From a virus, in IMG/VR virus record IMGVR_UViG_3300027320_000006, positions 28,359 through 92,358 of that record: a DNA stretch of 64,000 bases; one strand, 5' to 3'. Shown here in pieces: positions 19,254-51,841 of this stretch (its first letter is position 1; every line of letters begins with the position of its first letter). Both the position numbers and the translations under genes were made by a program. Under the pieces are notes generated by a model, which did not search any database, was not told where the DNA came from, and saw only the letters and a program-made list of their open reading frames with translations.

Positions 19254-19358
19254 ATAAAATCTTGTTATTTGTTGTATTATATATATAGGTTATTAACCAA
19301 GGTGATCTTTTAGACACCTATTTTAGAGCGTACCTTATGGGCGCAAATGGAGAATTAT

Positions 19359-19850
19359 ATGGCTAGTATTGATGATGTATTGAATCTACCTCAGCGTAGA
19401 ATTTTAATGCCCAATCGTAATGTGATCATGGATCAACATGAACAGATTATCAACAAGTTTTTTGACGATTTTTTAGGTAATCGTAAAAACTTTATTCATT
19501 CCAACACTTCTTATCCAAAAATGGATATCTTTGAAGATGATTCTTATTTCTGTTTGGACTTTGCTGTACCCGGTGTTGAAGAAAAAGATCTTGACATTGA
19601 AGTTGTCAAAGAAACTAAGCTTTTAACAATCACTGGAAATTCAAGAATCCTTAGAGAGAAGAGTTATTTCTATCATCTTAAAGAATTGAAGCAATCTGCT
19701 TTTACAAGAACAATTCAATTACCAGACAATCTTGAGCTTGACCCTGAAGTTTGTCATTTAGAAGCTGGTATTCTTAAATTAGCTTTTAAGAAGATTGTTT
19801 TTAAAGAAGAAGAGCTTAAAGAAACAGTAAAGAAAATTAAAATTAAGTAA
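19359..19850 (+). CDS. Small heat-shock protein (Hsp20/IbpA family)
   Basis: 163 residues. An alpha-crystallin domain spans about 43-140: 'PKMDIFEDDSYFCLDFAVPGVEEKDLDIEV' begins it, and 'TRTIQLPDNLELD' then 'LEAGILKLAFKK' close it. It is an ATP-independent holdase that keeps unfolding proteins soluble. I start at the ATG at 19359 because GGAG lies 6 nt upstream; an ATG 12 nt earlier lacks a site. It has its own terminator and adjoins clpP, a logical proteostasis pair. Confidence 0.9.
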   Translation: MASIDDVLNLPQRRILMPNRNVIMDQHEQIINKFFDDFLGNRKNFIHSNTSYPKMDIFEDDSYFCLDFAVPGVEEKDLDIEVVKETKLLTITGNSRILREKSYFYHLKELKQSAFTRTIQLPDNLELDPEVCHLEAGILKLAFKKIVFKEEELKETVKKIKIK

Positions 19851-19919: not shown

Positions 19920-20519
19920 ATGATTATTCCTACAGTATTAGAAAAATCATCTACCGGTGAACGTGCTTATGATATTTGGTCTAGATTACTTAAAGACCGA
20001 ATTATCTTTTTAGGGCAAGAGGTAGATGATTATATTATTAATTTGATTATCGCTCAGATGTTATTTTTAGACAAGGAAGATAGTCATAGACCGATTGAGT
20101 TTTATATTAATAGTCCTGGTGGTAGTGTTAGTGCGGGATTAGCTTTGTATGATGTTATTAATACAATTTCTGCTCCTGTTAATACCACTTGTGTAGGTAT
20201 GGCAGCTAGTATGGGAGCTATTCTTTTAGCTGGTGGTACTGGTACTCGATCTGCTTTGCCTCATTCTCGTATTATGATTCATCAGGTATCTTCTGGTTTT
20301 CGTGGTACATCTGCTGACATTCGTATTCAGGTTAATGAGACAAATAAGTTGGAAGATCAATTATTCGATATTCTTTCTCTCTCCACTGGTAAAACGAAGA
20401 AGCAGATTGCTAAAGACTGTGATAGAGATTATTACATGAGTGCGGAAGAAGCCAAAACGTATGGTGTTATTGATTGTGTAATTGAAAGTAAGAAAAATGG
20501 CAGAAATTCTCAAGTCTAA
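19920..20519 (+). CDS. clpP: ATP-dependent Clp protease proteolytic subunit ClpP
   Basis: 199 residues, the family's normal length. Catalytic Ser97 (GMAASMGA), His121 (MIHQVSSG) and Asp170 (DRDYYMS) are all present, as is 'YINSPGGSVSAGLALYD' at about 62-78. ClpP forms a tetradecameric barrel fed by a Clp ATPase. No clpX or clpA is in the window, so it may assemble with host unfoldases, or with host ClpP. A -10 box ends 6 nt before the ATG, so leaderless translation is predicted; AGG is also 3 nt upstream. Confidence 0.95.
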   Translation: MIIPTVLEKSSTGERAYDIWSRLLKDRIIFLGQEVDDYIINLIIAQMLFLDKEDSHRPIEFYINSPGGSVSAGLALYDVINTISAPVNTTCVGMAASMGAILLAGGTGTRSALPHSRIMIHQVSSGFRGTSADIRIQVNETNKLEDQLFDILSLSTGKTKKQIAKDCDRDYYMSAEEAKTYGVIDCVIESKKNGRNSQV

Positions 20520-24049: not shown

Positions 24050-24299
24050 ACAATTTATTTATTCTGAGGATTTTGTCCGTGGAAGAATTTACAGTTATCT
24101 TAAGTTTCAAAAGTATATGGAATCTATTGCTAAAATTGTATGTGATGAATTAAATTTTGGTGATTTTAAATCTGTACGTCTTGATCCTAAAGGTGATTTT
24201 ATTTGGGTGACATTTGAAGATAGTGAATTTGGCTTTGATGCTTGTTATTTGTGGGATAAAGATATCAAAGGTAATATTGAGAATTATATAAATCAATGA
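24039..24299 (+). CDS. Hypothetical small protein in the DUF2829 cassette
   Basis: 86 residues, no DUF2829 motif. The N-terminal helical part (about 1-40) is followed by a beta-meander ('KSVRLDPKGDFIWVTFEDSEFGFDACYLW'). Overlaps neighbours by 11 and 4 bp, so it belongs to the operon. Function unknown. Confidence 0.6.
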   Translation: MSTEQFIYSEDFVRGRIYSYLKFQKYMESIAKIVCDELNFGDFKSVRLDPKGDFIWVTFEDSEFGFDACYLWDKDIKGNIENYINQ

Positions 24300-24544
24300 A
24301 TGGTTTAGAAGCATTGCAATTTATTAAAAAAGGATGTAAAATCAGATGTAAAGCTTGGGAAAATAAGGATTGGTATTTGTATTATTCTGATTATTCTGGA
24401 TATGCTTTTTCAGTTAGGTCAGAAGAGTTTCCAAGGGTTCCAAATTTGAATCCTTCTACACCTTGGACTAACTTACATAATCAAGAAATTATAGAAGAAT
24501 TCTTGCGTGATATATTTGAAAATGAATGGGAGCTAGTGGATTAG
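24296..24544 (+). CDS. DUF2829 (Tad2-like) protein
   Basis: 82 residues. 'MNGLEALQFIKKGCKIRCKAW' (1-21) and the closing 'FLRDIFENEWELVD' are the family's start and end signatures; the loop between them differs from its neighbours. Proposed to bind a defence-signalling nucleotide (inference from Tad2). Confidence 0.75.
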   Translation: MNGLEALQFIKKGCKIRCKAWENKDWYLYYSDYSGYAFSVRSEEFPRVPNLNPSTPWTNLHNQEIIEEFLRDIFENEWELVD

Positions 24545-24778
24545 ATGTTTAATATTTCTTTTGATGTTACATATAAATTGAAAATGGGGTTTATCGTCGT
24601 TCAAAAACATGATAATGGAATTTCTAAGTGGAGAATCTTAGACGAAAAGCTTGAGACTTGTTTTTTTGGTGAGAATCTGATCGAGGCTAATTGGGTTACA
24701 GCAGATGTATTGATTCTTGATCCTAATGCTTCTTATAGTTTTGAGCCTGTTACAAAAAATAAAAATGAATGGAACTGA
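24545..24778 (+). CDS. Hypothetical small protein in the DUF2829 cassette
   Basis: 77 residues (MFNISFDVTYKLKMGFIVVQKHD...), beta-rich, no recognised family. The start directly abuts the previous stop, and the 3' end overlaps the next gene by 14 bp. Confidence 0.6.
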   Translation: MFNISFDVTYKLKMGFIVVQKHDNGISKWRILDEKLETCFFGENLIEANWVTADVLILDPNASYSFEPVTKNKNEWN

Positions 24779-25043
24779 TGCATTAACTCTTTTACGAGCT
24801 GGATATATTCTTAGGCGTAAAGCTTGGGAACCTGATATAAAATGTAAGGCTTATTTCAGTGATGATATGAAGTCTGTTAAGATTAATATTGATGACCCTA
24901 TATTATTTGCTTTAGACACGCATTTAGTTCCACAATGGGTTCCTGAAAAGCCTGAATTTTCCAGCTATGTAAGTTATTATGATGTTATTGATAATGGGGA
25001 TTTATTAGAAGACGATTGGGAAGTTGTAGATGAAATTCTCTGA
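24765..25043 (+). CDS. DUF2829 (Tad2-like) protein
   Basis: 92 residues. 'MNGTDALTLLRAGYILRRKAW' at the start, 'DLLEDDWEVVDEIL' at the end, with a longer central insertion (about 35-70). I start at the ATG at 24765, which matches the N-terminus of its neighbours. Confidence 0.8.
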   Translation: MNGTDALTLLRAGYILRRKAWEPDIKCKAYFSDDMKSVKINIDDPILFALDTHLVPQWVPEKPEFSSYVSYYDVIDNGDLLEDDWEVVDEIL

Positions 25044-25248
25044 AGTAATTGATTCTTTGATGCAATACAAGCCAATATCGAGAAGCGTTTGGCCTGATGG
25101 TAAATTTTTGTATCTTGATAAAGAACAAAATTGGTTTGCTTATCATATCAAAGAAGATTACGAAGAAGATGATTACGAATTTATCACCTATAGACTTGAT
25201 TTAAAACCAGAAGATATTATTGCTGAAGATTGGGATGTTTTAATATGA
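25030..25248 (+). CDS. DUF2829 (Tad2-like) protein
   Basis: 72 residues. 'MKFSEVIDSLMQYKPISRSVW' to 'EDIIAEDWDVLI'. Closely related to the next product, so recently duplicated. Overlaps the previous gene by 14 bp and the next by 4 bp. Confidence 0.8.
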   Translation: MKFSEVIDSLMQYKPISRSVWPDGKFLYLDKEQNWFAYHIKEDYEEDDYEFITYRLDLKPEDIIAEDWDVLI

Positions 25249-25511
25249 AATTCTCTGAAGTAGTTGATTCATTAATGGAAGGTAAACCAATTTCTCGCAC
25301 TGGTTGGGAAAATGGCAAATATATGTATTATGACAAAGAAGAAGATTCTTTTGTGTATGTATATTATGCAGATGATTCAGAAAACGGTTATGAATTAGGG
25401 ACATTCGGTCTTGATTTAGAACCCCGTGATGTTGTTGCTGAAGATTGGGATATTGATACTTGGGATTTAGACCATATTGTTGACGCTAACAAAAAGGTAG
25501 ATGAAGAATGA
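25245..25511 (+). CDS. DUF2829 (Tad2-like) protein
   Basis: 88 residues. 'MKFSEVVDSLMEGKPISRTGW' to 'RDVVAEDWDIDTW', plus a charged C-terminal tail of about 17 residues not seen in its paralogues. ATGA overlap with the previous stop fixes the start at 25245. Confidence 0.8.
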   Translation: MKFSEVVDSLMEGKPISRTGWENGKYMYYDKEEDSFVYVYYADDSENGYELGTFGLDLEPRDVVAEDWDIDTWDLDHIVDANKKVDEE

Positions 25512-25531
25512 CAGGACTGGGAGGAAGTAGA

Positions 25532-25750
25532 ATGAAATTTGCTGATGTCATTGACTCATTAATGTCTGGCAAGCGTGTGCGTAAGACCAATTGGGAAAGT
25601 ACTACTGCTTTCTTAATCTACGACAAGGAAGATAACACTTTTGATTTCTACGAAGTCTTAGATGGAGAAGTATGTAGGACACAATTTTATTCAACACTAG
25701 ATCTTACTCCTAAAGATTTGATGTCTGACTTCTGGGAGGTTGTAGAATGA
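25532..25750 (+). CDS. DUF2829 (Tad2-like) protein
   Basis: 72 residues. 'MKFADVIDSLMSGKRVRKTNW' to 'KDLMSDFWEVVE'. The usual D-D-W near the end is D-F-W here. GGAGG 7 nt before the ATG at 25532 decides against a longer start at 25508. Confidence 0.8.
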   Translation: MKFADVIDSLMSGKRVRKTNWESTTAFLIYDKEDNTFDFYEVLDGEVCRTQFYSTLDLTPKDLMSDFWEVVE

Positions 25751-26025
25751 CTGGAATCGAAGCTTTGTCCCTTTTAAAAGATGGCAAAACATTAAGAAGA
25801 ACATCCTGGGAAGCTCATGAAAAATGTAAAGCCTTAGATTTCTTTGGTAAATGGATTATACATCTGGAAAAAGTACAGGATGATAAAATTTTAGATAAAG
25901 AAATAGAGAAAATATTTCAAAATAGTTTTGCATTTACTAAGACTACTTTTGATGATTTCTTTGGATTATTTGATAAGATAGAAGCGGGTGAGTTCTTACA
26001 CGATGATTGGCAAATAGTAGAATGA
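25747..26025 (+). CDS. DUF2829 (Tad2-like) protein
   Basis: 92 residues. 'MTGIEALSLLKDGKTLRRTSW' to 'EFLHDDWQIVE', with a long charged central helix (about 40-60) that the shorter paralogues lack. ATGA overlap with the previous gene. Confidence 0.8.
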   Translation: MTGIEALSLLKDGKTLRRTSWEAHEKCKALDFFGKWIIHLEKVQDDKILDKEIEKIFQNSFAFTKTTFDDFFGLFDKIEAGEFLHDDWQIVE

Positions 26026-26246
26026 CTGGAATAAAAGCACTTAAAGCAATTCGTAAAGGATATCAAGTGCGAAGAATTCATTGGAAAAAAGGCGAGTATT
26101 TGTTTCAGATGCTTGGTGTTTTAGATCAACATAATGAAATAAGGTGGGGTTTTGGCGGAAGACTTATTTGGACTAGTAAAGTTGTTGATGCTACTGAATT
26201 TTTGAGTGATGATTGGGAAATAGTAGAATGCCTAAGTACAGATTAA
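26022..26246 (+). CDS. DUF2829 (Tad2-like) protein
   Basis: 74 residues. 'MTGIKALKAIRKGYQVRRIHW' to 'EFLSDDWEIVE'. The start at 26022 overlaps the previous stop (ATGA). Last DUF2829-like member of the contiguous cassette. Confidence 0.8.
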   Translation: MTGIKALKAIRKGYQVRRIHWKKGEYLFQMLGVLDQHNEIRWGFGGRLIWTSKVVDATEFLSDDWEIVECLSTD

Positions 26247-28182: not shown

Positions 28183-28410
28183 CTATCTACATCTTTTTTG
28201 ATATGTAGGAAAAATATCTCCGTAATCTGCTTTTCTGAGTATTCTAATTACATCTTCATCATTCATAGCTAATTTTTGAACATTTGATTTAAGATAATAT
28301 ATATCTACCGAATTTGCATAAGGGAATATATCTTCTAAATGTTCAGCCAATGTTTTTTCTTCTTCATTGTAGATATATGTTTTAGTTCTAGCAGCTAATG
28401 AATACCACAT
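28183..28410 (-). CDS. MWY-tagged small protein
   Basis: 75 residues beginning MWYSLAART. After the tag it is a small helical domain ('TLAEHLEDIFPYANSVDIYYLK'). It is one of five neighbours with an N-terminal MWY. Function unknown; last in the minus-strand unit. Confidence 0.65.
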   Translation of the reverse strand: MWYSLAARTKTYIYNEEEKTLAEHLEDIFPYANSVDIYYLKSNVQKLAMNDEDVIRILRKADYGDIFPTYQKRCR

Positions 28411-28411
28411 T

Positions 28412-28771
28412 TTATATATTTCTTTTCTTATATAATATTTCTACTGGATGATCATTTACAAGACTAGCCCAATATCCTGGGTGTATTTCATCCGCATTTA
28501 CTACTACTTTATATACTTTGAATGTTTTTCTTTTATCATTCCAAAAGTTAGTATTACCAAAATCTTCAGCTTCTTGTGGAGATGTAGCTAATAAAGAGCC
28601 TGATCTAAGCTCTTCTAAGTCTAATCTAGAGCCATGATAAAAAACGTATTTATCGCCTTCTCTATCTACTTTATGTCTTTCTAGCCATTCTTCATTTGAT
28701 TCTTGGTTATTTGATGTTTTTGTCCATGTTTTTTTGATATCTATATTGTCTGCTGATATTCTATACCACAT
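28412..28771 (-). CDS. MWY-tagged ADP-ribosyltransferase-like protein
   Basis: 119 residues beginning MWYRISADN. After an N-terminal segment, 'DKYVFYHGSRLDLEELRSGSLLATSPQEAEDFG' (about 41-73) and 'KTFKVYKVVVNADEIHPG' (about 82-99) resemble the ADP-ribosyltransferase core: a YHG strand, a 'GS.LATSP..A..FG' segment, and a later strand pair. A catalytic Glu is not certain. A T4 Alt-like virion-delivered enzyme is an attractive inference. Confidence 0.6.
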   Translation of the reverse strand: MWYRISADNIDIKKTWTKTSNNQESNEEWLERHKVDREGDKYVFYHGSRLDLEELRSGSLLATSPQEAEDFGNTNFWNDKRKTFKVYKVVVNADEIHPGYWASLVNDHPVEILYKKRNI

Positions 28772-28772
28772 A

Positions 28773-29471
28773 TTAATAATCTCTCCATTGACTCATAAGA
28801 GATGGTATTTTTTTTCTATTCATTTCAAAATCTTTAATGTCATTTTTAAAATCAGCAACTTTATTTACATTATATACTCTATCAAACAAACCTTTTCCAG
28901 TATTAATTTTAAATCTTATATTTGCGGGTTGTATTAAATTAATAATTTCAAATAACTTTTGCATTTGTGTATATGTTGGAACGTGTACAGAATTTACAGA
29001 CATCATTGAACCCATGTGACTGATTCTTATACCTTTGTCAAAATAATCATGTAGAATTTCAGTGACAGCATCTTCTTGTGCTAAAAAAGGTTGATCAGGT
29101 CCAGAATCAAAATTTATTCTTTCTGCATAATCCATTGGACCATAAGCTTTGTCTGGCAAGTTTCTGATATTATATTTTTCTGATATTTCTGGATTATTAC
29201 GAAGACTTTTACGAGATTGATCTAATATTTTATCTATATAGTTGCTATGGCTTGAACCTTGATGAATAGCTCCAGTTCCAGTGAGAATTAAATGATAATC
29301 GCCTTTGGAATGATCTATTTGATTTACTGGATCAGGGATATTTGATCTCACCACTTCTCTAAAAACATCATCAGGCACTCCGGGTTTTTCCATAGGTTCA
29401 GGAGTATTTGTTTGTTGTGGTTGTTCAATACCAAATAATTTTCCAAAATCAATTGCTGTCCTGTACCACAT
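28773..29471 (-). CDS. MWY-tagged protein
   Basis: 232 residues beginning MWYRTAIDF; AGGAG lies 8 nt before the ATG. A Pro/Gln-rich linker (about 16-35) separates the tag from a domain with 'DYHLILTGTGAIHQGSSH' (about 58-75) and 'VPTYTQMQKLFEIINLIQPANIRFKI'. That last segment loosely resembles 'PTNDLTLNNIIKFVTPDSINKWEI' in the upstream neighbour, so the two may be distant paralogues. Function unknown. Confidence 0.65.
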   Translation of the reverse strand: MWYRTAIDFGKLFGIEQPQQTNTPEPMEKPGVPDDVFREVVRSNIPDPVNQIDHSKGDYHLILTGTGAIHQGSSHSNYIDKILDQSRKSLRNNPEISEKYNIRNLPDKAYGPMDYAERINFDSGPDQPFLAQEDAVTEILHDYFDKGIRISHMGSMMSVNSVHVPTYTQMQKLFEIINLIQPANIRFKINTGKGLFDRVYNVNKVADFKNDIKDFEMNRKKIPSLMSQWRDY

Positions 29472-29474
29472 ATC

Positions 29475-30038
29475 TTAGTCTCCTGATCTTCCTTTATAGA
29501 AAGATTGTGTATTATCAACTCTTTGTATAGGGGCAATATTAATATCTTCTTTTACATTTGTGGTATTTTGTAATGAGAGATTGTTTATAGATTGTTTTAA
29601 GGAATCAAAGCCTCTGCCATGCGGATTATTAGGTACATTTAATATTTCCCATTTGTTGATTGAATCTGGAGTAACAAATTTTATAATATTATTTAGGGTG
29701 AGATCATTTGTTGGGCCATAGATAGTTATGTCAGCCATATCTATCATTTTAGTAACTCTGACTGTTCCGCCTTGAGCAAATTGTCCTAAGCCTCTCCCTA
29801 CAAATTCAATAGGATGTTCTTCAAAATCTGCATCACCTGGCATCATTCCATGTTTTAATTTTAACATCATTGAAGTATGTTGATGACCATAATTTTTAGG
29901 TGGTGCATATTTCTCACCATTTACTATCCAGAAGTGTTGTTCATTTTCATTAGAAGCAACATTGGAAAAAGAATTAAAAAAATCTTCTTCTGGAATTTCT
30001 TTATTGTTAATTGTAATTGCTGCGTATCTGTACCACAT
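29475..30038 (-). CDS. MWY-tagged protein
   Basis: 187 residues from MWYRYAAITINN; I use the ATG at 30038 because it aligns with the tag of its neighbours. The domain contains 'QHFWIVNGEKYAPPKNYGHQHTSM' (about 34-57) and 'VRVTKMIDMADITIYGPTND'. His-rich, possibly metal-binding. First gene of a four-gene run. Confidence 0.65.
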   Translation of the reverse strand: MWYRYAAITINNKEIPEEDFFNSFSNVASNENEQHFWIVNGEKYAPPKNYGHQHTSMMLKLKHGMMPGDADFEEHPIEFVGRGLGQFAQGGTVRVTKMIDMADITIYGPTNDLTLNNIIKFVTPDSINKWEILNVPNNPHGRGFDSLKQSINNLSLQNTTNVKEDINIAPIQRVDNTQSFYKGRSGD

Positions 30039-30070
30039 AGTTCTTTTTTTACAGATATAATCATTTATGA

Positions 30071-30106
30071 CCTTTCTATGATATAATAGATACATAGAGG
30101 TGAGAT
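30071..30106 (+). promoter_or_regulatory. Extended -10 promoter and RBS for the 30107 gene
   Basis: TATGATATAATAGATA (extended -10) is followed by AGAGGTGAG just before the ATG. Confidence 0.6.
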
Positions 30107-30361
30107 ATGAAATTTGTGCAGACTCTTAAATATTTGAAGCAAGGATACAAAGCTCGTAGAACTTGCTGGGATGAAGTATCTTGGATTGCTTTAGGTAATA
30201 CAAAACAAGATGATGAGGGTGAATTTGATGAAACTATTGTAGATACCAGTGAGATTGATTATGCTACATTTTTCTTAATCAATCTTCAGGATGGTATTGA
30301 AGCTTATTGTCCATACCTTCAAGATATTGTTAATGATGATTGGATAATATTTGACGAATAA
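30107..30361 (+). CDS. Isolated DUF2829 (Tad2-like) protein
   Basis: 84 residues. 'MKFVQTLKYLKQGYKARRTCW' to 'DIVNDDWIIFDE', the same ends as the 23-26 kb cassette. It is alone on the plus strand between minus-strand genes, with its own promoter and terminator. Confidence 0.75.
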   Translation: MKFVQTLKYLKQGYKARRTCWDEVSWIALGNTKQDDEGEFDETIVDTSEIDYATFFLINLQDGIEAYCPYLQDIVNDDWIIFDE

Positions 30362-30365
30362 TAAG

Positions 30366-30391
30366 AAAGCCAGAGAATATTCTCTGGCTTT
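30366..30391. terminator. Bidirectional terminator
   Basis: AAAGCCAGAGAATATTCTCTGGCTTT with T-runs on both strands, between convergent genes. Confidence 0.85.
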
Positions 30392-30394
30392 TAT

Positions 30395-32908
30395 TTATTT
30401 GAATGTGTCTGGATATTCTTCTCTCCATTTAGGATTATAGATATCATATGACATAAATGAAGGTTTAGGTTCTTTTAAAGTTTTACCACCTTCTGTACCT
30501 TGAGCGACCTGTCCTAAATCAAAATCTCTCATAGTTTTAAGTTCTTGATTTGAAAGTGGTGTTGTATCTCCCGTTGTATTTGCGGCCATCTGGTCTTTTC
30601 TAATTGATATTGGAGAAACATAATTAGGATCAGCAGCTATTTCATTAGTTATTTTGATATCTTTAAATGCTATATAAGACGCTACAGATTTAACGATAGT
30701 ATAAATATCATGATCAAATGCACCCGCTTCAATATTTCTGATTTTTAATTTTAACTTTTTGATGTCTTCTTGAAGTTTTTTATATTCTTCGCTATCTTCA
30801 CTTACTCTTGTTTTTAATATTTCAGCTTGATCTTCTAATGATTGTATTTCTTCGATAGTAGCTTTTTTTATGTCTTCTCGATTGACCTTACCAGCTTCTT
30901 CATAAAATTTAATTGCTAGTTGTTTTTGTTTTAGGTAATCTTCAGTAGCTTGGGTATAAGGTTGTTCAGAATTTTCATAAGGTCCAAATCTTTTTTCTGC
31001 CCATTCTTGAAGTTTTTGTTCAGATACCATAGGAGTAGCATTCAACCAGCTTGCTTCATTACTCATCAGCATATCTGATAATTCTTCTACAACAGCTTTT
31101 CTAATGATTTCCGATGTTCTCATTTCTTCAATTCTTTTATGCAGAATTTCAATCATATAAGAAGTATTTCCATATACTCTTGCAACAATTTCTCTAATGT
31201 CTGATAAATACAATCTAGATTGATTGTATGCTTCGCCTTCTTTTAAGGATGTTTTAGGATCTACATTACTGAATACTTCTGATCCGCCTTTGATAACATA
31301 ATCTGCTAAATGGGCTAATTCATGAGCAGCTGTAGACATATTAATCATGTCTTTGGTTATTCCAAGATTGTTAATAATATTGTCACTATTTACATAGTCT
31401 TCAGATATAAATTCGTTGATAAATATTGAAGGACCATTATTGTTATCCGAAAATCTAGGAACAAAATATCCACAAGAGTTCATTAATGTAGGTGTGATAA
31501 AACCATATTCTTGAAGTGATGTATTTAATAAATCTTTATAAAATTCAGAATTTTTAAATACATAAATCTTTAATCTTGATTTAATATCACTTATGATATT
31601 TTGATCATCTGAATTGAATCCAAATGAATTTAGAATATCATTTAGTAATTTTTCATATTCTCCAGTAATATCATGTTTTTCAATATATCCATTTTGTAGA
31701 TTTTTTTGAAATATATCGAGTATAGGAGAATTAGCACTTTGTGGTGTTGTATTTTGAGTTTGTGTATTTTGAGCTCGTTGAGACTGATATGAATTAAGTT
31801 TTTCAGAGTTTTTTTGCACATAAGCATCAATTTCTTCTTTTGTGGGTATTTCTTTAAATTTCCTATTTGCTAAATCTTTATTTTCCAATGAAGCTTTTAT
31901 GTATTCTTTGATTATTTCTTCTTTCGGTCCAACACCTAATCTGTGTAAATAAGGTTTGTAATAATATTCACAAGAAGGATAAATTTTTTCATTTATAATT
32001 TGTCTATTGTTTTTAAATATTTCATACCAAAAATCACCCATAAAATAAGTCATTCCGTATTTGAAAGCACCAACGAATCTATTTTCAAAATGCTCTGGAC
32101 TAAATTTATTTTTATTTTTATCTAAATATTCTATATATTTATCAAATTTTTGATCATTTATTAAAAGATCATAAACTTTGGGTAGATCATCCATTACTCT
32201 TTCATTGTGAGCTTCATCTAATAAATATAAATAATCGTCAATAGGTAATCCAGAATATTGGACAACATCATAATAAAGTTGCCTACCAGCATCTGATTGT
32301 ATGTTATCAATAATATTTTTAAGTATTTGTTCTCCAGAATATTTATCAGCATTAAGAAATTCATACATAGGATCTTTATCCGTAATATATTTTTTAATTT
32401 CTGTTCTTGCTTCACTCTGTTGCATGCTTGAACTAGATAGTGTGTCCATATTCATCATTATATATATACGAACACGCTTTGGAAGATCAATGCCTTCTTT
32501 TGTGTATGCTAAGAGTTTATTATATCCGAAATTATATACAGTGTTATGTGTCTCTAATGTACTACCCATATGTGAGAAAGTGTCAGGCAATAACATCATT
32601 TCTTCGTTTTGAGAAATTTTATTATTCTTTATCATTAACGGAACTAATCTATTAGCTCTATGTACAGTTTCAGCATCTTTCGAATACATATAAATCAAGT
32701 GTGTTATAACAGATGTTAAATAATCACTCGTATACTTGTTGTCAATCAAGTCAAGAAGATATTTATAAAGATGTTCAAAATTTGGTAATTTTGAAATAGA
32801 ATAATTATGTCGTATTTCCCATAATATATCTTCTGGTGATTTACTAGTATCCATTCCACCAGCCAACTCATCTAACGCACCAGCTTCTACTATTTTTTGA
32901 TACCACAT
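30395..32908 (-). CDS. MWY-tagged large HExxH metallopeptidase-like protein
   Basis: 837 residues beginning MWYQKIVEAGALDEL. A zincin motif 'AAHELAHLADYVIKGG' lies at about 526-541 (HELAH), and a possible third ligand Glu is in 'LSDIREIVARV' about 45 residues later, a gluzincin-like spacing. The first 500 residues are helical. A coiled coil follows (about 680-720, 'EEIQSLEDQAEILKTRV'). It could be a packaged protease acting on the virion or host; no substrate can be read. Confidence 0.7.
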   Translation of the reverse strand: MWYQKIVEAGALDELAGGMDTSKSPEDILWEIRHNYSISKLPNFEHLYKYLLDLIDNKYTSDYLTSVITHLIYMYSKDAETVHRANRLVPLMIKNNKISQNEEMMLLPDTFSHMGSTLETHNTVYNFGYNKLLAYTKEGIDLPKRVRIYIMMNMDTLSSSSMQQSEARTEIKKYITDKDPMYEFLNADKYSGEQILKNIIDNIQSDAGRQLYYDVVQYSGLPIDDYLYLLDEAHNERVMDDLPKVYDLLINDQKFDKYIEYLDKNKNKFSPEHFENRFVGAFKYGMTYFMGDFWYEIFKNNRQIINEKIYPSCEYYYKPYLHRLGVGPKEEIIKEYIKASLENKDLANRKFKEIPTKEEIDAYVQKNSEKLNSYQSQRAQNTQTQNTTPQSANSPILDIFQKNLQNGYIEKHDITGEYEKLLNDILNSFGFNSDDQNIISDIKSRLKIYVFKNSEFYKDLLNTSLQEYGFITPTLMNSCGYFVPRFSDNNNGPSIFINEFISEDYVNSDNIINNLGITKDMINMSTAAHELAHLADYVIKGGSEVFSNVDPKTSLKEGEAYNQSRLYLSDIREIVARVYGNTSYMIEILHKRIEEMRTSEIIRKAVVEELSDMLMSNEASWLNATPMVSEQKLQEWAEKRFGPYENSEQPYTQATEDYLKQKQLAIKFYEEAGKVNREDIKKATIEEIQSLEDQAEILKTRVSEDSEEYKKLQEDIKKLKLKIRNIEAGAFDHDIYTIVKSVASYIAFKDIKITNEIAADPNYVSPISIRKDQMAANTTGDTTPLSNQELKTMRDFDLGQVAQGTEGGKTLKEPKPSFMSYDIYNPKWREEYPDTFK

Positions 32909-32956: not shown

Positions 32957-33235
32957 GTGTTTGATTTTCTTCTTGCTAAACCGTCTACAGCTCACAATAA
33001 AATAGAATATACTAATATGTCTACAAAATTATGCTGCGGGACAGATGGTCATGAATATAAAGTAACGTCTGTTGTTGGGCCTTTTAGAAATAGATTGTCT
33101 GAACTTGGATTTACTAAAAATACCATAGTTATGATAGTGAGACATATAAATAATAAAGGCCCGATAGAAATACTTATCAGAGGATATTACATTATTTTAA
33201 GACATGATGAAGCAGAATGTATTATCGTTGAATAA
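32957..33235 (+). CDS. FeoA-like domain protein, predicted leaderless
   Basis: 92 residues from a GTG. 'RNRLSELGFTKNTIVMIVRHI' (about 44-64) and 'GPIEILIRGYYIILRHDEAECIIVE' (about 68-92) follow the SH3-like FeoA pattern: (R)L.E(L)G then GP(I).(I)..(G)..(I).LR..EA. FeoA works with FeoB iron transporters or in DtxR regulators; neither is here. The 33-residue N-terminal part contains 'KLCCGTDGHEY'. The 3' end overlaps the convergent gene by 14 bp. Confidence 0.65.
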   Translation: MFDFLLAKPSTAHNKIEYTNMSTKLCCGTDGHEYKVTSVVGPFRNRLSELGFTKNTIVMIVRHINNKGPIEILIRGYYIILRHDEAECIIVE

Positions 33236-36200
33236 TAATTATTTGGCTTTCAGAATCAGCTACATACAAGTCCTTAGTATTAATTTGTTTTGAATTTAAA
33301 TCTAATATAGTTTTTACGTATGGATTTTCCCATGGTCTAGCGTTATTCTTAAATGGTGTTTTTGTGTCTTTCTTAAATTGTCTTGGTCTATATGCACCGC
33401 TAGATTGAGAACCAAAATTAACATTAGTGTTCATTTTTTTTGCTACATCATAAATAAGTTTGTCAACTATTGTTTGTGCTTCTACGCTACCGAATAATTT
33501 GCTTCCAATTGTTTCAAAACTATCAAAACAGATATTGCCGTTATCATCTTCCCAAACATAACTACCCAGGATCATTTGACCTTTTTGATCTTCTATTATA
33601 AAGAACGAAGATTTATCTGATATTTGACCATCTAATGCAAGAGTTGCAGCATAACTATCTGGATGTTGACAGCATCCAGCATAATTTCCTATAAACATAC
33701 CTCTTGTGTCATTTCTGTGTAAGAATCTAGCTGTATATCCGTAATATTCTTCTTCAATATCTGACCACTCTGGCTGAGGAAAGTTAGTTCTATGTTTGTA
33801 TAATATTTCTATATTTTGATACATTTTTAATAATCTATCATTTTCATCCATACCTAAATGATCATGAAAATCCGGTTTATCAGAAAATTCAAAATGTTTA
33901 TCAAATTCTTTTGCTAATCTAGGTTCTTGCACTTCAATCTTACTGAAGAAAATTAATGATGATGAAGTTTTAATTAAATCAGAGAGTTCACTTACATCAT
34001 ACATTTTAGATAATTCAGACACGAGAGATTTGGAGGCTATACTCATTTTTTCATCAGCAATATTTATTTCTTTATTCCACATTCTCGCTACTTTAGCAAG
34101 TTGAAATAAATTTTTATTATTCATTTGCTGAATGATATAATCAGATAAACCCGGACCAGGATCAATTTTGTCAAACTTTTGCGCAGCAGAATGTATTACA
34201 ATACTTTGAACATAATCATCCATTTCCGAAAATTTAAATATCTTACCGTAATCTTTTCCTGATGCGATAATAAATTTATCAAGAAAATTAGGTAATGATT
34301 TATTAAATAATCTGAGAAGTGCCATAGATTCATTTACATATTCTAGTTGTGTATTTGAATTTAACCTTACTTCAGCTTTTGAAAAGTCTATATTTAATTT
34401 ATTGGGAATTTGAGTACTTGTAATTTCTTTTATAAAATCTTCTGTTATGACATCAGGTAAATAATAATTTATATCTGCAGTAGCAGCTGTTGCTGCATAT
34501 ATAGGCATAAGTTTAGTAGTAGAGTCAGAATAATCAGGATTAATCCCAATAATTTTATCCATTATTAATTTATAAAATTTTATCATTGATTCTCTATTTA
34601 AATAAATTAATAAACCATGCCCATCATTTATAGCTTGCAATGCATCACCAGCTTGATTAGCTGTTACACCTTTAGGTAAATAACTTTCAGCATCTTCATC
34701 TGTATTTAAAGCATTATCATATTTTGTTACGAAATCTAATATTTGATTTATAGGATATTTAGCGATCTCAGTGTTTTGTGCTTTAATTGCTGTATGGTAT
34801 TTATTGTATACTTTAACTTCTATATCATGTATAATAGTTTTTCTATTTCTTACATGTATTTTTGCATCTGAAACATTAATATTTGGTAAATCACAAGCAA
34901 CCCTATTACGGATCATATGATTAACATCATCTAGTCCTAATTCTGTTATCATTTCATCTTTTGCATGAAGATCTAAAAGTTTGATAAGCAATTGAGGATT
35001 TCGCCCTCTTAGATCATAATTATGAAATAAAATATATAAGAGCTTATTGTAATCAGCACTTCCTTCTTCAAAGTTATGATATGCTGTATTTCTAGGATTC
35101 TTGAAACTATCTTTAACTAATTTAATTCTTTCTAATGTCTCAAAATGGTTTACTTTATCAGAAAGTAAATTTAATTCAGTTAATGATAAATGTGCAAATC
35201 TTGGATTACTTATATTTAGTAAACCTATCTTAGATATATCGATAATATCACTGTCTTTAAAACGAGCTGCGATTTCTCTTGATCTATAACTGTTAGCTTT
35301 ATAAATCTTGTCAGCTATTTTAGCTTTATTAGGGTCAGTAGAACCAAACAAAATATAATTTTGAACATTCTTATTTGCAATATGAGGTTCTAAATCTTTA
35401 TATGGAATATCTACAGCATTTGAATTATTTTTATAAAATTCTGAATACTTTTCAATATCATCTACACTTAAGCTTGAAAATTCTGGATTAGATTTATGAT
35501 AGGCTAAAACAATGTCAGGATTATTATGCTTCAGAATCTCAATAGGATGAATTTCTTGTAATCTGTCAGGGCGAAATTTGATGTAAGTAGAAAGATAATA
35601 AGTTTTTAAATATTGTTGAACATAGTCTCTGTCAAATTGTGTAATATAATCCAAGAAATATTTAGCATTAGATTTTGTGATAGCACTTCTAACATAATTA
35701 TTTAAAAGATCAGATAATGATCCTATGTATATTTCTGCTTTTTCTTTGTCAGCTTCTATCAAAACTAAATATAGGGTCTGGTTTACTTGATCAGGCTCTA
35801 AATTAAATAATTCATAATCTTTGCCCAGAACTTGTTTGTAATATAGGTTTAGTTCAGTTCCATCATGTTGTAATTCTTTATACTTAGCGATAGCTTGATC
35901 AAATGGAAGTATTGTATTTATTCTGATGATATGTTCTGCATCAGAATCTCTCATTAGACTTTTAATATTATCAAAAATTACTCTGACTTGTTCAGGAGAA
36001 TAATGCGCAGTCAATCGTTCTAACACATTGTTGCTGATTTGAACAGGTTCTTGTATGCCTCTAAAAAAAATAATATTTTTTATAAAATAATATATCTTAT
36101 TATCTTGGCATCGGATGTTAAGTTGTTCTTGGTAGTTATTTTTTCCAGGTAAAAAAGATAATCCAGCTTTTTTGAAATTTACAATTTCCTCTTTATTCAT

Positions 36201-36968
36201 TTCAGGAATTTTAGAATCAAATGCAGACGCATCATTTAAGTAAGCTTGAAGTTCCGATGAATTTTCAAAATAATCAGCTAAATCATAAAGATTCATAAGA
36301 TCATTAAATATTTGACCTAAATTTTCTGGATTAGAATGATAATATAAATATTCTGAAAATAGTTTTTTAGCATGACCATCAGGTAAATATTTAACAGCTG
36401 AATCAATTTTATATTGTTTGTCAAATCTTATAATTTGTTCTGGCTTTGAATATCTTAAAGATAATAAAAGCTCATCTTCAGCAAATTTAAGATTACCTTT
36501 TAGAAATTGATCAGTAAATTCATACAATGATGAGTCTGGAATTTTATAGAATGCTTGAATAACATTTTCAACTATAACCCTTAAATAATTTCCAAGGCTC
36601 TTATTTTCCGGTTTATTTACTCGATCATATAGCTGTTTGATAGATTCATTGATGGTATTTCCTGAGCTCCAAGCATTATAAAATTCATCAAATAAATCAT
36701 GATCTTGTTCACTAATTTGAGATTTTAATTTAGAGGATTGTTCATCAGCTAAAGGATGGTCTACAATATATTGCGCATGTTCATTTTCAGGTGTTTCTTC
36801 AATAATATCTTCAGTCTCTTCATTTTGTTCTTGTTGTGCGATTTTGAGCATTAAATTCGCATATCTGTCAAATTTATCTGAGTAAGAATAATCACCAATA
36901 GAATCATACATATTTGCTATTTTGATACTTACAATTGAAGATGTGTTGACGAATTTGATTTGAGACAT
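33222..36968 (-). CDS. Giant protein with CCQ-type C-terminal domain
   Basis: 1248 residues from MSQIKFVNTSSIVSIKIANM; AGGTAA lies 4 nt before the ATG at 36968. The N-terminus has the motif 'IANMYDSIGDYSYSDKFDRYANLMLKIAQ' (about 18-46) shared in pattern with three other proteins. The centre is helical and repeat-like. At about 1093-1175 'MFIGNYAGCCQ', 'SSFFIIEDQKGQMILGSYVW' and 'ICFDSFET' match the 16567 protein. A virion or injected protein is proposed. Confidence 0.7.
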   Translation of the reverse strand: MSQIKFVNTSSIVSIKIANMYDSIGDYSYSDKFDRYANLMLKIAQQEQNEETEDIIEETPENEHAQYIVDHPLADEQSSKLKSQISEQDHDLFDEFYNAWSSGNTINESIKQLYDRVNKPENKSLGNYLRVIVENVIQAFYKIPDSSLYEFTDQFLKGNLKFAEDELLLSLRYSKPEQIIRFDKQYKIDSAVKYLPDGHAKKLFSEYLYYHSNPENLGQIFNDLMNLYDLADYFENSSELQAYLNDASAFDSKIPEMNKEEIVNFKKAGLSFLPGKNNYQEQLNIRCQDNKIYYFIKNIIFFRGIQEPVQISNNVLERLTAHYSPEQVRVIFDNIKSLMRDSDAEHIIRINTILPFDQAIAKYKELQHDGTELNLYYKQVLGKDYELFNLEPDQVNQTLYLVLIEADKEKAEIYIGSLSDLLNNYVRSAITKSNAKYFLDYITQFDRDYVQQYLKTYYLSTYIKFRPDRLQEIHPIEILKHNNPDIVLAYHKSNPEFSSLSVDDIEKYSEFYKNNSNAVDIPYKDLEPHIANKNVQNYILFGSTDPNKAKIADKIYKANSYRSREIAARFKDSDIIDISKIGLLNISNPRFAHLSLTELNLLSDKVNHFETLERIKLVKDSFKNPRNTAYHNFEEGSADYNKLLYILFHNYDLRGRNPQLLIKLLDLHAKDEMITELGLDDVNHMIRNRVACDLPNINVSDAKIHVRNRKTIIHDIEVKVYNKYHTAIKAQNTEIAKYPINQILDFVTKYDNALNTDEDAESYLPKGVTANQAGDALQAINDGHGLLIYLNRESMIKFYKLIMDKIIGINPDYSDSTTKLMPIYAATAATADINYYLPDVITEDFIKEITSTQIPNKLNIDFSKAEVRLNSNTQLEYVNESMALLRLFNKSLPNFLDKFIIASGKDYGKIFKFSEMDDYVQSIVIHSAAQKFDKIDPGPGLSDYIIQQMNNKNLFQLAKVARMWNKEINIADEKMSIASKSLVSELSKMYDVSELSDLIKTSSSLIFFSKIEVQEPRLAKEFDKHFEFSDKPDFHDHLGMDENDRLLKMYQNIEILYKHRTNFPQPEWSDIEEEYYGYTARFLHRNDTRGMFIGNYAGCCQHPDSYAATLALDGQISDKSSFFIIEDQKGQMILGSYVWEDDNGNICFDSFETIGSKLFGSVEAQTIVDKLIYDVAKKMNTNVNFGSQSSGAYRPRQFKKDTKTPFKNNARPWENPYVKTILDLNSKQINTKDLYVADSESQIIIIQR

Positions 36969-44281: not shown

Positions 44282-44866
44282 ATGTTAGATTTATCAAAGA
44301 GTTGGAAAGACGCTTTTATTGTCCAATCAAATGCTATCGATCCGCAGCCAGGTTATGATGGAGCTAAACCAGGTTGTCAAATGTATGATAACCATTTGAA
44401 TGCTTTGAATTTTGTATTATCTGATGGATGGGAGATTAATTCATCGACCCCATTAGATATTCATAGATTCTTGACCAAAGGAATAGATTATTTTGAAAAT
44501 CATAATTCTTCAGGTCAATATAGAACAGTAGATGTTTGGATAGGCAATGAAGAATGTCCAAAACCATATTTGTTTCCAGGATTGATTGATACATGGTTTA
44601 AAACTACTAAAAATCTAATGAATGATGAATCTAGAAACCCAATTGATACAGCTTGGATTTCACATCATATGTTTGAGATTATTCATCCTTTCATAGATGG
44701 TAATGGACGCACTGGTAGACTAATTTTCAACAAAGTATTGCATGATTTAGGCGAAGATGCTAGAATCATTTATTACATTGATAGACACAAATATTATGAT
44801 GAGATTGATGAGTTTAGAAAATATTATTGGACTGGTCAATCTTTTTGTAATCTAGATTTACTATAG
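44282..44866 (+). CDS. Fic-domain protein (AMPylase family)
   Basis: 194 residues. The full catalytic motif 'HPFIDGNGRTGR' is at 135-146, so it should transfer AMP (or another NMP) to a target Ser/Thr/Tyr. An N-terminal segment 'SNAIDPQPG' (16-24) sits where class II Fic proteins carry the inhibitory (S/T)xxxE(G/N); here Glu is Asp and the next residue Pro. Autoinhibition may be weak. It lies before a nuclease/methyltransferase pair. Confidence 0.9.
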   Translation: MLDLSKSWKDAFIVQSNAIDPQPGYDGAKPGCQMYDNHLNALNFVLSDGWEINSSTPLDIHRFLTKGIDYFENHNSSGQYRTVDVWIGNEECPKPYLFPGLIDTWFKTTKNLMNDESRNPIDTAWISHHMFEIIHPFIDGNGRTGRLIFNKVLHDLGEDARIIYYIDRHKYYDEIDEFRKYYWTGQSFCNLDLL

Positions 44867-46778: not shown

Positions 46779-47276
46779 TTAGTCATCTAATGGATCGTAA
46801 CCATCATCTCCAAAATCATTTCTCTGTTCTTTCAAATCAGATTCATATTTTTCACAAGCTTCAGAAATAGACATCTCATCATTAAGCCATGGTTCTAAAA
46901 TATATAAAGTATCGCCACTCTTAACACTGTCTTCCAAATATGTTCCTGATAATGCAACCGTTAGTTTATCTTGAACTGAATTTTCCAATTCTTGATCGCC
47001 CTCTGACATTGGATCTTGTTGATATTCCATTTTATATCTTTTCAACATCGGGTCATTTTCTAAAGATGATACATTTGAATAGTTTCCACCAGCAAATCCA
47101 TCTTCTAAACTTTTATCAAGATCTCGTTGAGTACGCATTTCATACTTGCTGTATTCACTATCGAAATTTTGAGCCATTTTAACAGCAACACGAGTCAATT
47201 TATCTGCTTCGTCGTGCATTCCTCTATAATCCAATAAATTAGCTATTTTTACTAATTTTACTAATGATCTATTCAT
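46779..47276 (-). CDS. Probable virion protein with 'IAN..AD' N-terminal motif
   Basis: 165 residues. 'LVKIANLLDYRGMHDEADKLTRVAVKMAQ' (about 7-35) is the clearest copy of the shared N-terminal motif. The rest is acidic and disordered-looking. AGGAG before the ATG. Function unknown; a packaging signal on the N-terminus is inferred. Confidence 0.65.
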   Translation of the reverse strand: MNRSLVKLVKIANLLDYRGMHDEADKLTRVAVKMAQNFDSEYSKYEMRTQRDLDKSLEDGFAGGNYSNVSSLENDPMLKRYKMEYQQDPMSEGDQELENSVQDKLTVALSGTYLEDSVKSGDTLYILEPWLNDEMSISEACEKYESDLKEQRNDFGDDGYDPLDD

Positions 47277-47312: not shown

Positions 47313-48155
47313 CTATCTTGCAAAAAAACTTTTCAACTTATCTATGCCTTTATTAACAAAAGTTTTTTTAGGACTAAGTTTTTCATAAGCCTCGGCAGCA
47401 GCTTTTTGAATATAATCTGGAAGAGCAGATGGAAGATTTAATTGGAATTCAAATTCATGTAATTCTTCATCCCCAATATCATCCATGCTAGTTTTCATAT
47501 CAACAACTCTTCCTTGATCATCTTTGACAACTTTTTTTATTCTTTTGCCTCTAACAGGTATAAGCCATCCTTGTTTGACCATGTTTTTAATCATAGGCCA
47601 AGATGTTGTTTTTCTAGCTGATCCTATAATTGAAAATCCTTGAGATTGATAAGGCATTAGAAGCTTATATAATCTGTCTAAAGCTATCATCAAATTTGTT
47701 CTTCTGTTACCTGGAATAACTGTAAGATCTTCTACTTCTATTTTTTTCTTTCTATTATTTACAGATAAAATAAAATAGAATATCCCATTCATACCATCTA
47801 CAATATATTTATCATTATCATCTTCTATAAGATATTCATCAGCTTTTTCTCTTATTTCTTTATAAATTTTGTCTCTTGCAGGTTTAGGTATTAATTTTTG
47901 TTGTTCTGGAGTCATATATACATAAGATGGTACTTCCAGATCTGAAAATACATGGAAATCAGGAGGATATACATCTGACTCCATTTTTATCACGTCCTTG
48001 GGTTTGAGCGAAGTATTGACCCAATCTAACTTTTCAATAATTGGTTCGCCTTCAGGGGTCTTAGCAATCTTTTGTAACACCCTATCATTTATATCTGCTT
48101 GGTGAAAATTTCCAACAGATTCATGATATTTGCAACTAGAAATAATTATTTTCAT
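47313..48155 (-). CDS. Probable virion protein with 'IAN..AD' N-terminal motif
   Basis: 280 residues. 'ISSCKYHESVGNFHQADINDRVLQKIAKT' (about 5-33) follows the shared pattern. The domain after it includes 'PPDFHVFSDLEVPSYVYMTPEQ' and 'SWPMIKNMVKQGWLIPVRGKRIKK'. No enzyme motif. No Shine-Dalgarno sequence; an A/T-rich -10-like stretch lies 8-10 nt upstream. Confidence 0.6.
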   Translation of the reverse strand: MKIIISSCKYHESVGNFHQADINDRVLQKIAKTPEGEPIIEKLDWVNTSLKPKDVIKMESDVYPPDFHVFSDLEVPSYVYMTPEQQKLIPKPARDKIYKEIREKADEYLIEDDNDKYIVDGMNGIFYFILSVNNRKKKIEVEDLTVIPGNRRTNLMIALDRLYKLLMPYQSQGFSIIGSARKTTSWPMIKNMVKQGWLIPVRGKRIKKVVKDDQGRVVDMKTSMDDIGDEELHEFEFQLNLPSALPDYIQKAAAEAYEKLSPKKTFVNKGIDKLKSFFAR

Positions 48156-50347: not shown

Positions 50348-51841
50348 ATGAATAGGTATGCCCTTTTACTTGAATTAAATAATATCTGCTGCGATTTAGA
50401 ATCTCAAGGTAAACTCATAGAAGCTGCAAAAATACATGATGTATTTACAAAAGTAGCTGGTAATGAGCCTTGGTACTATAATAAAAATACTTTATTTGCA
50501 GTTCTAACATTAGCAGGTGTTGTAGCTGGGACAACTACTAAATTAATCCAAACATATTTAGAAAATCCAGCAAAAATATTACAAAACTATAATATTACAG
50601 AATTCAAACCTTTTGGTAAAGGCGCAAAACATACAGCTGTTGGAGCGTGGCAAAGTTATCTAAATGCGAATAGTAATGCCGGGCTTGATGTAGATAATGA
50701 TTTCGGACAAGCTACCGTGGATGCTACTGTAGTTTTCCAAAGAGTTCAAAGCATATCTGCAACTGGAGTTTTAGATAGCCAAACATTTAAAGCTGCTATT
50801 CTAAATAACCCTAAAGATCCAAATCTTTCAAACTTAATTAAAATAGAACAACTAATAACTCCAAAAGAAACTACACCTGAGCAAATGGTTCAGGATCCTT
50901 TGTACGATAAGCCTATAGTAGAGCAAGCAGCTCCGCAACCTATTATCGAACAACCAGAAATAAAGCAGCCTGTCAAAAAAGAAATAGCTAGACCTAAAGC
51001 TAAAATGCCAGCTAGAAGAAAAATCAAACTCAAAATGATGGAAGATTTGGATTCTGGGAAAATAACAGGCAGAGAAAGAAAATCAGTCAAAAAACACTGG
51101 TTAGTATTTGACAGTAAGAAAAATAAAGGTCTTCCATTTAAAACTGATCCCGCAGAAGTATATGAAATTTACAAAGATTTCAGAAACAAGCAAGAAGGTG
51201 GAGCTGTTAACATGAAAACAGATCCAGGCGGGGAAACAAACTTTGGAATTACACAAAAACATTATAATGGATTAGTCAGAGCTTATGGCTTTCCACCTAA
51301 ATCAGTCTTTAAATTAACAAAAGAAGAAGCTGAAAAAGCAGCATTTGTTGATTGGCAAGAATTAGGTGTTTCTAAACTTCCAGCTAATACAGCGATTGCT
51401 TTAGCAGACATTAAGTTTAATTCAGGTTTAGGCTGGGTTACTATGATTCTCAGAGACGCTTTAGGTATACAACAAAAGCCTCTCAACCTAACTTCTACTC
51501 CTCAAGAAAAAATTGAAATAGACAACATGATTGCAATGTTGTCCAAAAAAATTACAAGTCAAGAATTAGACGAATATTTTGCTGCTAAAATTATTAGATC
51601 TAGAGCTAAATTCTTGGCAGGAGCTAGAGCTAAAGGTAAGGTAGGGAAAACACCTATGCCTACTATGGTCGCTCACCGTGGACTTATTGACCGATTACAC
51701 CAGATATCTAAGCTTACTGGTAATGATAGTGACTGGGATGAAGTTTATAGAGGAATGCCTAAGAGTAGAGGCAAGAGATTTAAGTTCATCAAAGACTATG
51801 GTTTACACAGACCAACTCCAGAATTCCCAGGCGCAAAATAG
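50348..51841 (+). CDS. Virion-associated lysozyme: GH108 with peptidoglycan-binding domain
   Basis: 497 residues. An N-terminal motif 'LNNICCDLESQGKLIEAAKIHDVFTKVAG' is followed by a membrane helix (about 49-67), a PG_binding_1 domain (about 95-160), a Pro/Lys linker (about 180-250), and a GH108 muramidase. The latter is marked by 'EGGAVNMKTDPGGETNFGITQ' (catalytic Glu near 284). It cuts the glycan backbone, likely at DNA entry since the N-terminal motif is shared with other candidate virion proteins. GH108 also occurs in endolysins. Confidence 0.85.
   Translation: MNRYALLLELNNICCDLESQGKLIEAAKIHDVFTKVAGNEPWYYNKNTLFAVLTLAGVVAGTTTKLIQTYLENPAKILQNYNITEFKPFGKGAKHTAVGAWQSYLNANSNAGLDVDNDFGQATVDATVVFQRVQSISATGVLDSQTFKAAILNNPKDPNLSNLIKIEQLITPKETTPEQMVQDPLYDKPIVEQAAPQPIIEQPEIKQPVKKEIARPKAKMPARRKIKLKMMEDLDSGKITGRERKSVKKHWLVFDSKKNKGLPFKTDPAEVYEIYKDFRNKQEGGAVNMKTDPGGETNFGITQKHYNGLVRAYGFPPKSVFKLTKEEAEKAAFVDWQELGVSKLPANTAIALADIKFNSGLGWVTMILRDALGIQQKPLNLTSTPQEKIEIDNMIAMLSKKITSQELDEYFAAKIIRSRAKFLAGARAKGKVGKTPMPTMVAHRGLIDRLHQISKLTGNDSDWDEVYRGMPKSRGKRFKFIKDYGLHRPTPEFPGAK

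Follow-up and report, generated by a model that had tools for sequence, protein, structure and literature searches.

In phage T4, the first ten residues are enough to bring an internal protein into the head; they can take foreign proteins along and are removed by the prohead protease gp21, with targeting depending mainly on residues 4 and 7 and processing on residues 8 and 10 of this capsid-targeting sequence (CTS) (PMC9026906). Many head and ejection proteins of SPN3US, a phage of the phiKZ type, bear N-terminal propeptides that are cut at A-X-E by gp245 (PMC10052503), and polyvalent or MuF-type effectors, with ART-PolyVal, PcfJ, InPase (inorganic pyrophosphatase), metallopeptidase and other domains, are thought to be delivered with phage DNA as polypeptides of 2–15 domains (PMC5512222; Iyer et al., 2017). 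Little is known of the proteins that giant phages inject together with their DNA, as the proteins of these phages lack recognisable homologues. Here, we analyse a 64,000-nucleotide window (bases 28,359–92,358) of IMGVR_UViG_3300027320_000006, a 92,358-bp environmental viral contig, in which five genes encode proteins starting with Met-Trp-Tyr (MWY). We read this start, MWY[KR]xA(Q), as a short cleavable head-targeting propeptide, with a probability of roughly three in four.

Three independent lines of evidence support a cleaved head-targeting signal: exchanges of the MWY tag with a second tag at the same locus, a [KR]xA signature in head proteins, and the position of an MWY gene beside the portal gene together with a head maturation protease. 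The system appears to function like the T4 CTS and to stand outside that family, because both sequence similarity and the [LI]xE motif were looked for and neither was found. As with the CTS of IPI–IPIII, a short N-terminal sequence is common to unrelated cargo (42 clusters here), and a prohead maturation protease and head core are encoded, here seen in the window's relatives. In contrast, E is absent from the MWY logo, whose end is [KR]xA-(Q) where T4 has [LI]xE, and the tag, with packaging and cleavage predicted from sequence, is exchangeable with a second, helical tag class. The SPN3US propeptides share with the present tags their occurrence in giant phages and a P3-x-P1 motif at the tag end, but they span 20–254 residues and end in A-X-E, whereas the tags described here span 6–7 or about 30 residues and end in [KR]-X-A, and the capsid protein is of the phage G type. 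The cargo domains overlap with those of polyvalent effectors (ART-PolyVal, PcfJ, InPase and metallopeptidase), although delivery there relies on large structural-domain fusions or multidomain proteins and here would rely on a short tag before mostly single-domain proteins. Neither the MWY motif nor a [KR]xA cleavage motif is described in the open full-text literature searched, itself only part of the literature.

The window belongs to a clade of giant phages, with related records reaching 300–479 kb, and an identical 837-amino-acid (aa) protein, with the same five MWY genes, is found on another contig, 165,921 bp long. By capsid protein, the closest named relative is Bacillus phage G (Donellivirus gee), to whose counterpart the major head protein of the relative G027 is 47.5% identical. 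In the head module of G027, PHROGs profiles recognise the portal, the terminase, the major head protein and the head maturation protease; the protease match (E 3.7e-20) lies within a 1379-aa protein, hereafter the protease-scaffold, whose protease domain spans about residues 1–260.

Extent and specificity of the MWY tag

All five MWY starts named in the first-pass annotation are confirmed; the genes lie on the minus strand, with ATGs at 28410, 28771, 29471, 30038 and 32908:

28183..28410, minus strand: 75-aa protein, tag MWYSLAA (codons 28390–28410); a 74-aa orthologue in G027 is also MWY-initial (cluster 18)
28412..28771, minus strand: 119-aa protein with a predicted ADP-ribosyltransferase (ART) fold from a structure model, tag MWYRISA (28751–28771)
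28773..29471, minus strand: 232-aa protein, tag MWYRTAI (29451–29471), retained in homologues
29475..30038, minus strand: 187-aa protein, tag MWYRYAA (30018–30038), cluster 19
30395..32908, minus strand: 837-aa protein with a HELAH-type metallopeptidase motif, AAHELAHLADYV, read directly, and the atypical tag MWYQKIVEA (32888–32908)

For the gene at 29475, the MWY start holds and the open reading frame start does not, since the mechanical frame (29475..30095) opens upstream of the MWY ATG at 30038; in G023_270195, a homologue of this 187-aa protein, MWY is likewise internal to an upstream-extended frame. No further MWY gene start was found within the window. The 92,358-bp contig contains seven ATGTGGTAY sites, all on a single strand, versus none for the reversed-pattern control. 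A 308-aa protein outside the window was considered as a sixth tagged gene, but its start, MWYYRDMN, breaks the motif and was judged a chance occurrence, and the remaining extra site opens a frame of five codons and was dismissed on the same ground.

The bodies of the five products had been described as mutually unrelated, and clustering agrees. Pfam and PHROGs scans assigned none of them, the 837-aa protein included, to a significant family, and tblastn of the 837-aa protein against cultured phages returned no match. The suggested ART-like identity of the 119-aa protein is upheld at the level of predicted fold: its AlphaFold model (predicted local distance difference test score, pLDDT, 76; residues 1–21 disordered) matches mostly ART folds in the PDB (Tpt1/KptA, PARPs and ParT, with Tpt1 on top at Z 7.5), and its match to Pfam ART-PolyVal reaches only E 0.13. 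An ART travelling inside a head has a precedent in T4 Alt. A fold search with the 232-aa protein gave nothing convincing, the best hit of its model (pLDDT 66.6) being Z 5.6 to gelsolin-like repeats, which was judged uninformative. Homologues, in which absence of the tag had been named as the telling outcome, carry it in conserved form. Those of the ART protein retain MWY, the MWYR.AI of the 232-aa protein is identical across four homologues while the adjoining linker has diverged or been lost, and cluster 7 homologues of the 837-aa protein open with MWYSRIIESA or MWNYKRSKRIVEAA. One ART homologue (L156:1501, G011) has the complete MWY tag but stops at 52 aa and may be a broken copy.

A search of related records for further MWY starts, which the first-pass annotation had suggested, found them in abundance. 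MWY forms the first three residues of 15, 10, 8 and 8 proteins in four related records, where composition predicts 0.18, 0.15, 0.12 and 0.11 (p between 4e-24 and 1e-12). The 172 MWY proteins fall into 42 clusters without mutual homology. Across them, position 4 is K or R in 85%, position 6 is A in 67% and position 7 is Q in 38%; residue 8 and those after it carry no more information than background. The short shared start is thus confirmed, and its extent, annotated as MWY.xA, is revised to M-W-Y-[KR]-x-A-(Q), which runs to residue 7. The same logo is obtained from the 32 clusters in which no member matches the search pattern: position 4 holds 2.5 bits, position 6 holds 2.3 and position 7 holds 1.4, versus a null maximum of 0.87. 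Following the 6–7 tag residues, a polar linker or a folded domain begins directly.

The signal is also specific at the DNA level. In viral contigs, 39 stretches encode MWYK[ILVMF]AQ, and the ATG is a gene start in 37 of the 39, a number that includes copies of one gene; the permuted control (MYWK...) occurs at two places, neither with a convincing gene, and a scan of bacterial and archaeal genomes totalling 257 Gb gave 23 matches to the MWYK pattern and no convincing gene start. The 30 records with MWYK[ILVMF]AQ matches contain 143 ATGTGGTAYMR sites versus 12 reversed-pattern sites, a difference biased upward because the records were picked for having a match. MWY is only three residues long, a point in favour of chance or an annotation artefact, but this explanation is refuted by 8–15 occurrences per genome against 0.1–0.2 expected and by the 39 matches against two for the permuted control.

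The shared start could alternatively act in RNA, as a coding translation signal or regulatory leader, and its invariable position at the very start of the gene would fit, as would the fact that inspection by eye revealed no Shine-Dalgarno-like site upstream of the window's MWY genes. However, both Tyr codons (TAT and TAC) and many Lys/Arg codons (AAA, AAG, AGA, CGN) are in use, which places the signal at the protein level, conservation tracks amino-acid classes, and the start is exchanged for a helical coding segment some 30 residues long that shares nothing with it but the [KR]xA-Q end (see below); we reject the RNA reading as very improbable. Equally hard to credit, and likewise rejected, is descent from one duplicated ancestor whose bodies diverged past recognition around a functionless N-terminal relic. 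The tandem MWY genes in the window and in G027 speak for it, but the bodies belong to different known folds that also have members lacking the tag, the tag is kept where the adjoining linker is lost and is swapped at the same locus, and MWY genes also occur singly and scattered in genomes of 300–478 kb.

Cargo and an exchangeable helical tag

Pfam assigned domains among 42 representative MWY proteins to families that include inorganic pyrophosphatase, M23 peptidase, HAD, GH108, AAA_33 (P-loop kinase), NUDIX, PcfJ, ART-PolyVal and DnaJ. The polyvalent-type domains ART-PolyVal and PcfJ match at E 1.6e-11 and E 1.6e-12, respectively, and a GNAT match is weaker (E 0.0017). Most MWY proteins comprise 75–600 aa and one recognisable domain, and some have two, such as NUDIX and HAD in a 300-aa protein. 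In L030, the tag stands ahead of the NUDIX domain's apparent own start (MWYKIAQSGT-MSDSK...).

Beside MWY, many other unrelated proteins of the same phages begin with a helical segment of about 30–38 residues, for example MNKRQILASLNKIANELDNTGLYKEATSITGVMKRIAQ, which the first reading had missed. It was detected in 68 of 1066 proteins at E<0.01, versus none among internal segments or shuffled N-termini; 12 C-terminal segments matched as well, some of which may merely overlap the N-terminus of short proteins. Nine helical tags scanned against Pfam gave no known domain. The tripeptide [KR].A lies within residues 13–47 in 90% of helical-tag carriers compared with 23% of other proteins. Four proteins of the window carry this tag, with E values for the helical-tag hidden Markov model (HMM):

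33222..36968, minus strand: 1248-aa protein, helical tag ...IANMYDSIGDYSYSDKFDRYANLMLKIAQ (HMM E 2.7e-11)
46779..47276, minus strand: 165-aa protein, helical tag MNRSLVKLVKIANLLDYRGMHDEADKLTRVAVKMAQ (HMM E 6.9e-16)
47313..48155, minus strand: 280-aa protein, helical tag ending LQKIA (HMM E 2.9e-10)
50348..51841, plus strand: 497-aa GH108/peptidoglycan-binding lysozyme-like protein, helical tag ending FTKVAG (HMM E 3.2e-14; Glyco_hydro_108 E 1.4e-12)

The lysozyme region of the 497-aa protein is related to a GH108 family that is MWY-tagged in other phages (cluster 24). Outside the window, L008:189-4906 (G000:C1) encodes at least five small proteins in a row with helical-tag starts (MNKRQILASLNKIANELDN...), suggesting a dedicated cluster of tagged cargo.

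In two families, the tags have been exchanged on one and the same body. The first pairs MWYRFAQ-DMSVPYYRYPEQ with the helical form MYSKKLLKLANKLDNSSFYKLADKLDRIAQ-DMSVPYYRYPEQ (tag end ...DKLDRIAQ) as the same gene in related phages; three phages have the MWY form and six the helical form, and supported branches in the tree of the bodies require two or more changes. The second, a GH108 family, pairs MWYRTVIAQ-ISDVDQ... with MNLRFAANIFDDLGDFDVADFIDGLLIKQAQ-ISDVDE... (helical end ...LLIKQAQ). In both families, homology starts at the A-Q that terminates either tag. Because the MWY and helical tags replace one another at the same locus, the same job is to be expected of both.

The head-protein signature and the destination of tagged proteins

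Head-protein results are drawn from three relatives, G002, G023 and G027, in which residue-pair enrichment was measured in head-module proteins versus all other proteins of the genome, counting from residue 61 onwards so that the tags themselves were unable to contribute. Among 460 class patterns, [KR].A ranks first in head proteins (280 seen versus 180 expected, 1.55-fold; 0.96-fold elsewhere). It also leads in each of the three genomes by itself, and it stays at the top of 444 patterns when the two strongest families, the protease-scaffold and the protein beside the capsid gene, are dropped. The single proteins with the highest values in G027 and G002 are the protease-scaffold and the capsid-adjoining protein, and head proteins lead in G023 too. 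In the protease-scaffold, 18 [KR]xA sites are conserved in the three phages, compared with 0–6 for six comparable two-residue patterns. After the Ala of head-protein [KR]xA sites, Q is enriched 2.6-fold and S 2.4-fold, which is not so elsewhere, and T, I, L and V are enriched before it. These preferences agree with the tags (Y-[KR]-[LFI]-A-Q), whose end thus coincides with both the head signature [KR]xA-[QS] and the swap junction. The T4-type [ILV].E is not enriched in head proteins (1.05-fold), no A.[DE]-type pattern is within the top ten of 460, and A-X-E is absent from the tags. With the same method, T4 as a positive control returned its known [LI].E at 1.89-fold, led by the scaffold gp22 and the protease gp21. 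Ala at P1 is not unusual for such enzymes, since the capsid proteases of herpesviruses, which are related to the head proteases of phages, cleave between Ala and Ser. Searches of seven giant records with the Pfam families Gp23 and Peptidase_S77 gave no match and are uninformative, as their controls were equally silent.

Further links to the head come from gene content. An MWY gene adjoins the portal gene in three phages. A 436-aa protein of G027 (L076:3701-5011), with a start that reads as ART-like (MAKFIRASKKFIKISQSEEKYYHGTT...) and no Pfam match, has at its C-terminus a module of 113 aa with homology to residues 623–735 of the protease-scaffold (E ~1e-14), which ties this effector-like protein to head assembly by homology. 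The same module stands alone as proteins of about 113 aa beginning MAKFIKTALL... (L088:12945-13286, L062:11656-12000, L104:18833-19177).

The principal alternative accepts the tag as a real N-terminal address but sends it elsewhere than into the head: to the tail or baseplate, to a phage chaperone, or to a compartment associated with a membrane or resembling a condensate. GH108 and M23 peptidoglycan hydrolases would suit a tail tip as well. The cargo, however, consists mostly of enzymes that work in the cytoplasm, the tripeptide at the tag end is enriched in the scaffold, protease and portal-neighbour proteins, an MWY gene adjoins the portal gene, and the tags as read contain no hydrophobic stretch for membrane targeting. 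We regard such another destination as unlikely. By reading of the sequences, the features of Sec, Tat or lipoprotein signals (a hydrophobic core of about 7 or more residues, or a lipobox, behind a basic N-terminus) are also lacking. The first-pass annotation had proposed a packaging or export tag by analogy with T4, that is, a short targeting sequence that unrelated cargo proteins share and that the head protease cuts off. In its packaging form, the T4-style proposal now appears the best supported, given a tag that is conserved, swapped and ends in the head-enriched tripeptide, and export has found no support.

Several points weigh against a cleavable head-targeting propeptide. Head location, packaging and cleavage are predicted here from sequences and not read from virions, which also favours the alternative destination. 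The window's own contigs contain no head module, so that every statement on head proteins, including the protease and the signature, rests on G002, G023 and G027, and these genomes share orthologues and are non-independent, so that the p values of the signature overstate independence. T4 head proteins show a mild [KR].A excess as well (1.41-fold, p 0.03), though this is not the T4 cleavage motif, and the method therefore carries some false signal, far weaker than the one in the giant phages. In addition, about one-third of the MWY clusters deviate at position 6, with Ser or a shifted Ala, and MWYQKIVEA of the window is among them.

Proposed delivery route and related observations

If the propeptide reading holds, the tag would be recognised and bound by the prohead scaffold or protease core during assembly, and the cargo would be enclosed. 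The head maturation protease would then cut behind the Ala of [KR]-x-A, with Gln or Ser preferred next as in the head-protein signature, so that the cargo would lie free inside the head, packaged alongside the DNA. On infection, the cargo may enter the host with the DNA and act as early effectors, as its types suggest (ART, NUDIX, metallopeptidase, GNAT and peptidoglycan hydrolases). The longer helical-hairpin tag, which can replace MWY, would do the same job, and a third tag, M-x-K-[FWY]-[IV]-[KR], probably does so too.

Phage G, a cultured relative, offers a comparison. Its commonest N-terminal tetrapeptide is MKRL, found in 13 proteins versus 0.17 expected, and in 12 of the 13, [KR] and A or S follow closely behind (MKRL..[KR]xA/S). 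These proteins are unrelated and include PARP/ART-like, GNAT, deoxyribosyltransferase, ParB and ferritin-like members; among the 13 are gp13, gp17, gp38, gp53 and the products at record positions 207449, 214437, 244460, 255160, 255911, 388147, 446709 and 482110. Phage G differs from the MWY clade in its tag sequence and in having few ATGTGGTAY-type sites, and [KR].A comes second among 432 patterns in the phage G head module, which is only nominally significant (p 0.004). In G027, 17 MWY and 23 helical proteins are tagged among 358. On evenly balanced odds, the phage-G-like clade could be viewed as a modular delivery platform, in which about one-tenth of the genome is addressed to the head by at least two unrelated, interchangeable tags sharing only the [KR]xA site, and individual genes are acquired, lost or given another tag one at a time. 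Should the tag be a head address, the injected proteome of the clade could be read from N-termini, yielding dozens of effectors, many of unknown function, and the six- to seven-residue tag would be a candidate means of bringing foreign proteins into capsids of very large size. The predicted cleavage motif of the phage-G-type head protease is [KR]xA followed by Q or S.

Other genes of the window and its relatives were recorded in passing. By reading, the window encodes small heat-shock-, ClpP- and GroEL-like proteins (19347-19850, 19920-20519 and 61669-63285), and relatives have DnaK- and DnaJ-like genes. The frame at 44282-44866 has a Fic-like motif, HPFIDGNGRTGR, and neither tag, and may encode an AMPylating effector. 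Tandem paralogous small DUF2829-like proteins (MKFSEVIDSLMQYKPISR..W and MTGIEALSLLKDGKTLRR..W) are encoded at 24296-26246, and phage G has an annotated DUF2829 protein, gp59. A possible hint at the host comes from prepilin-like proteins of G027 (G027:C1:142190) and G002 (G002:C1:48217), MKKAFTLIELLVVIAIIAILAAILFPVFAQARxKAR, a type that we take to be that of Planctomycetota or Armatimonadota.

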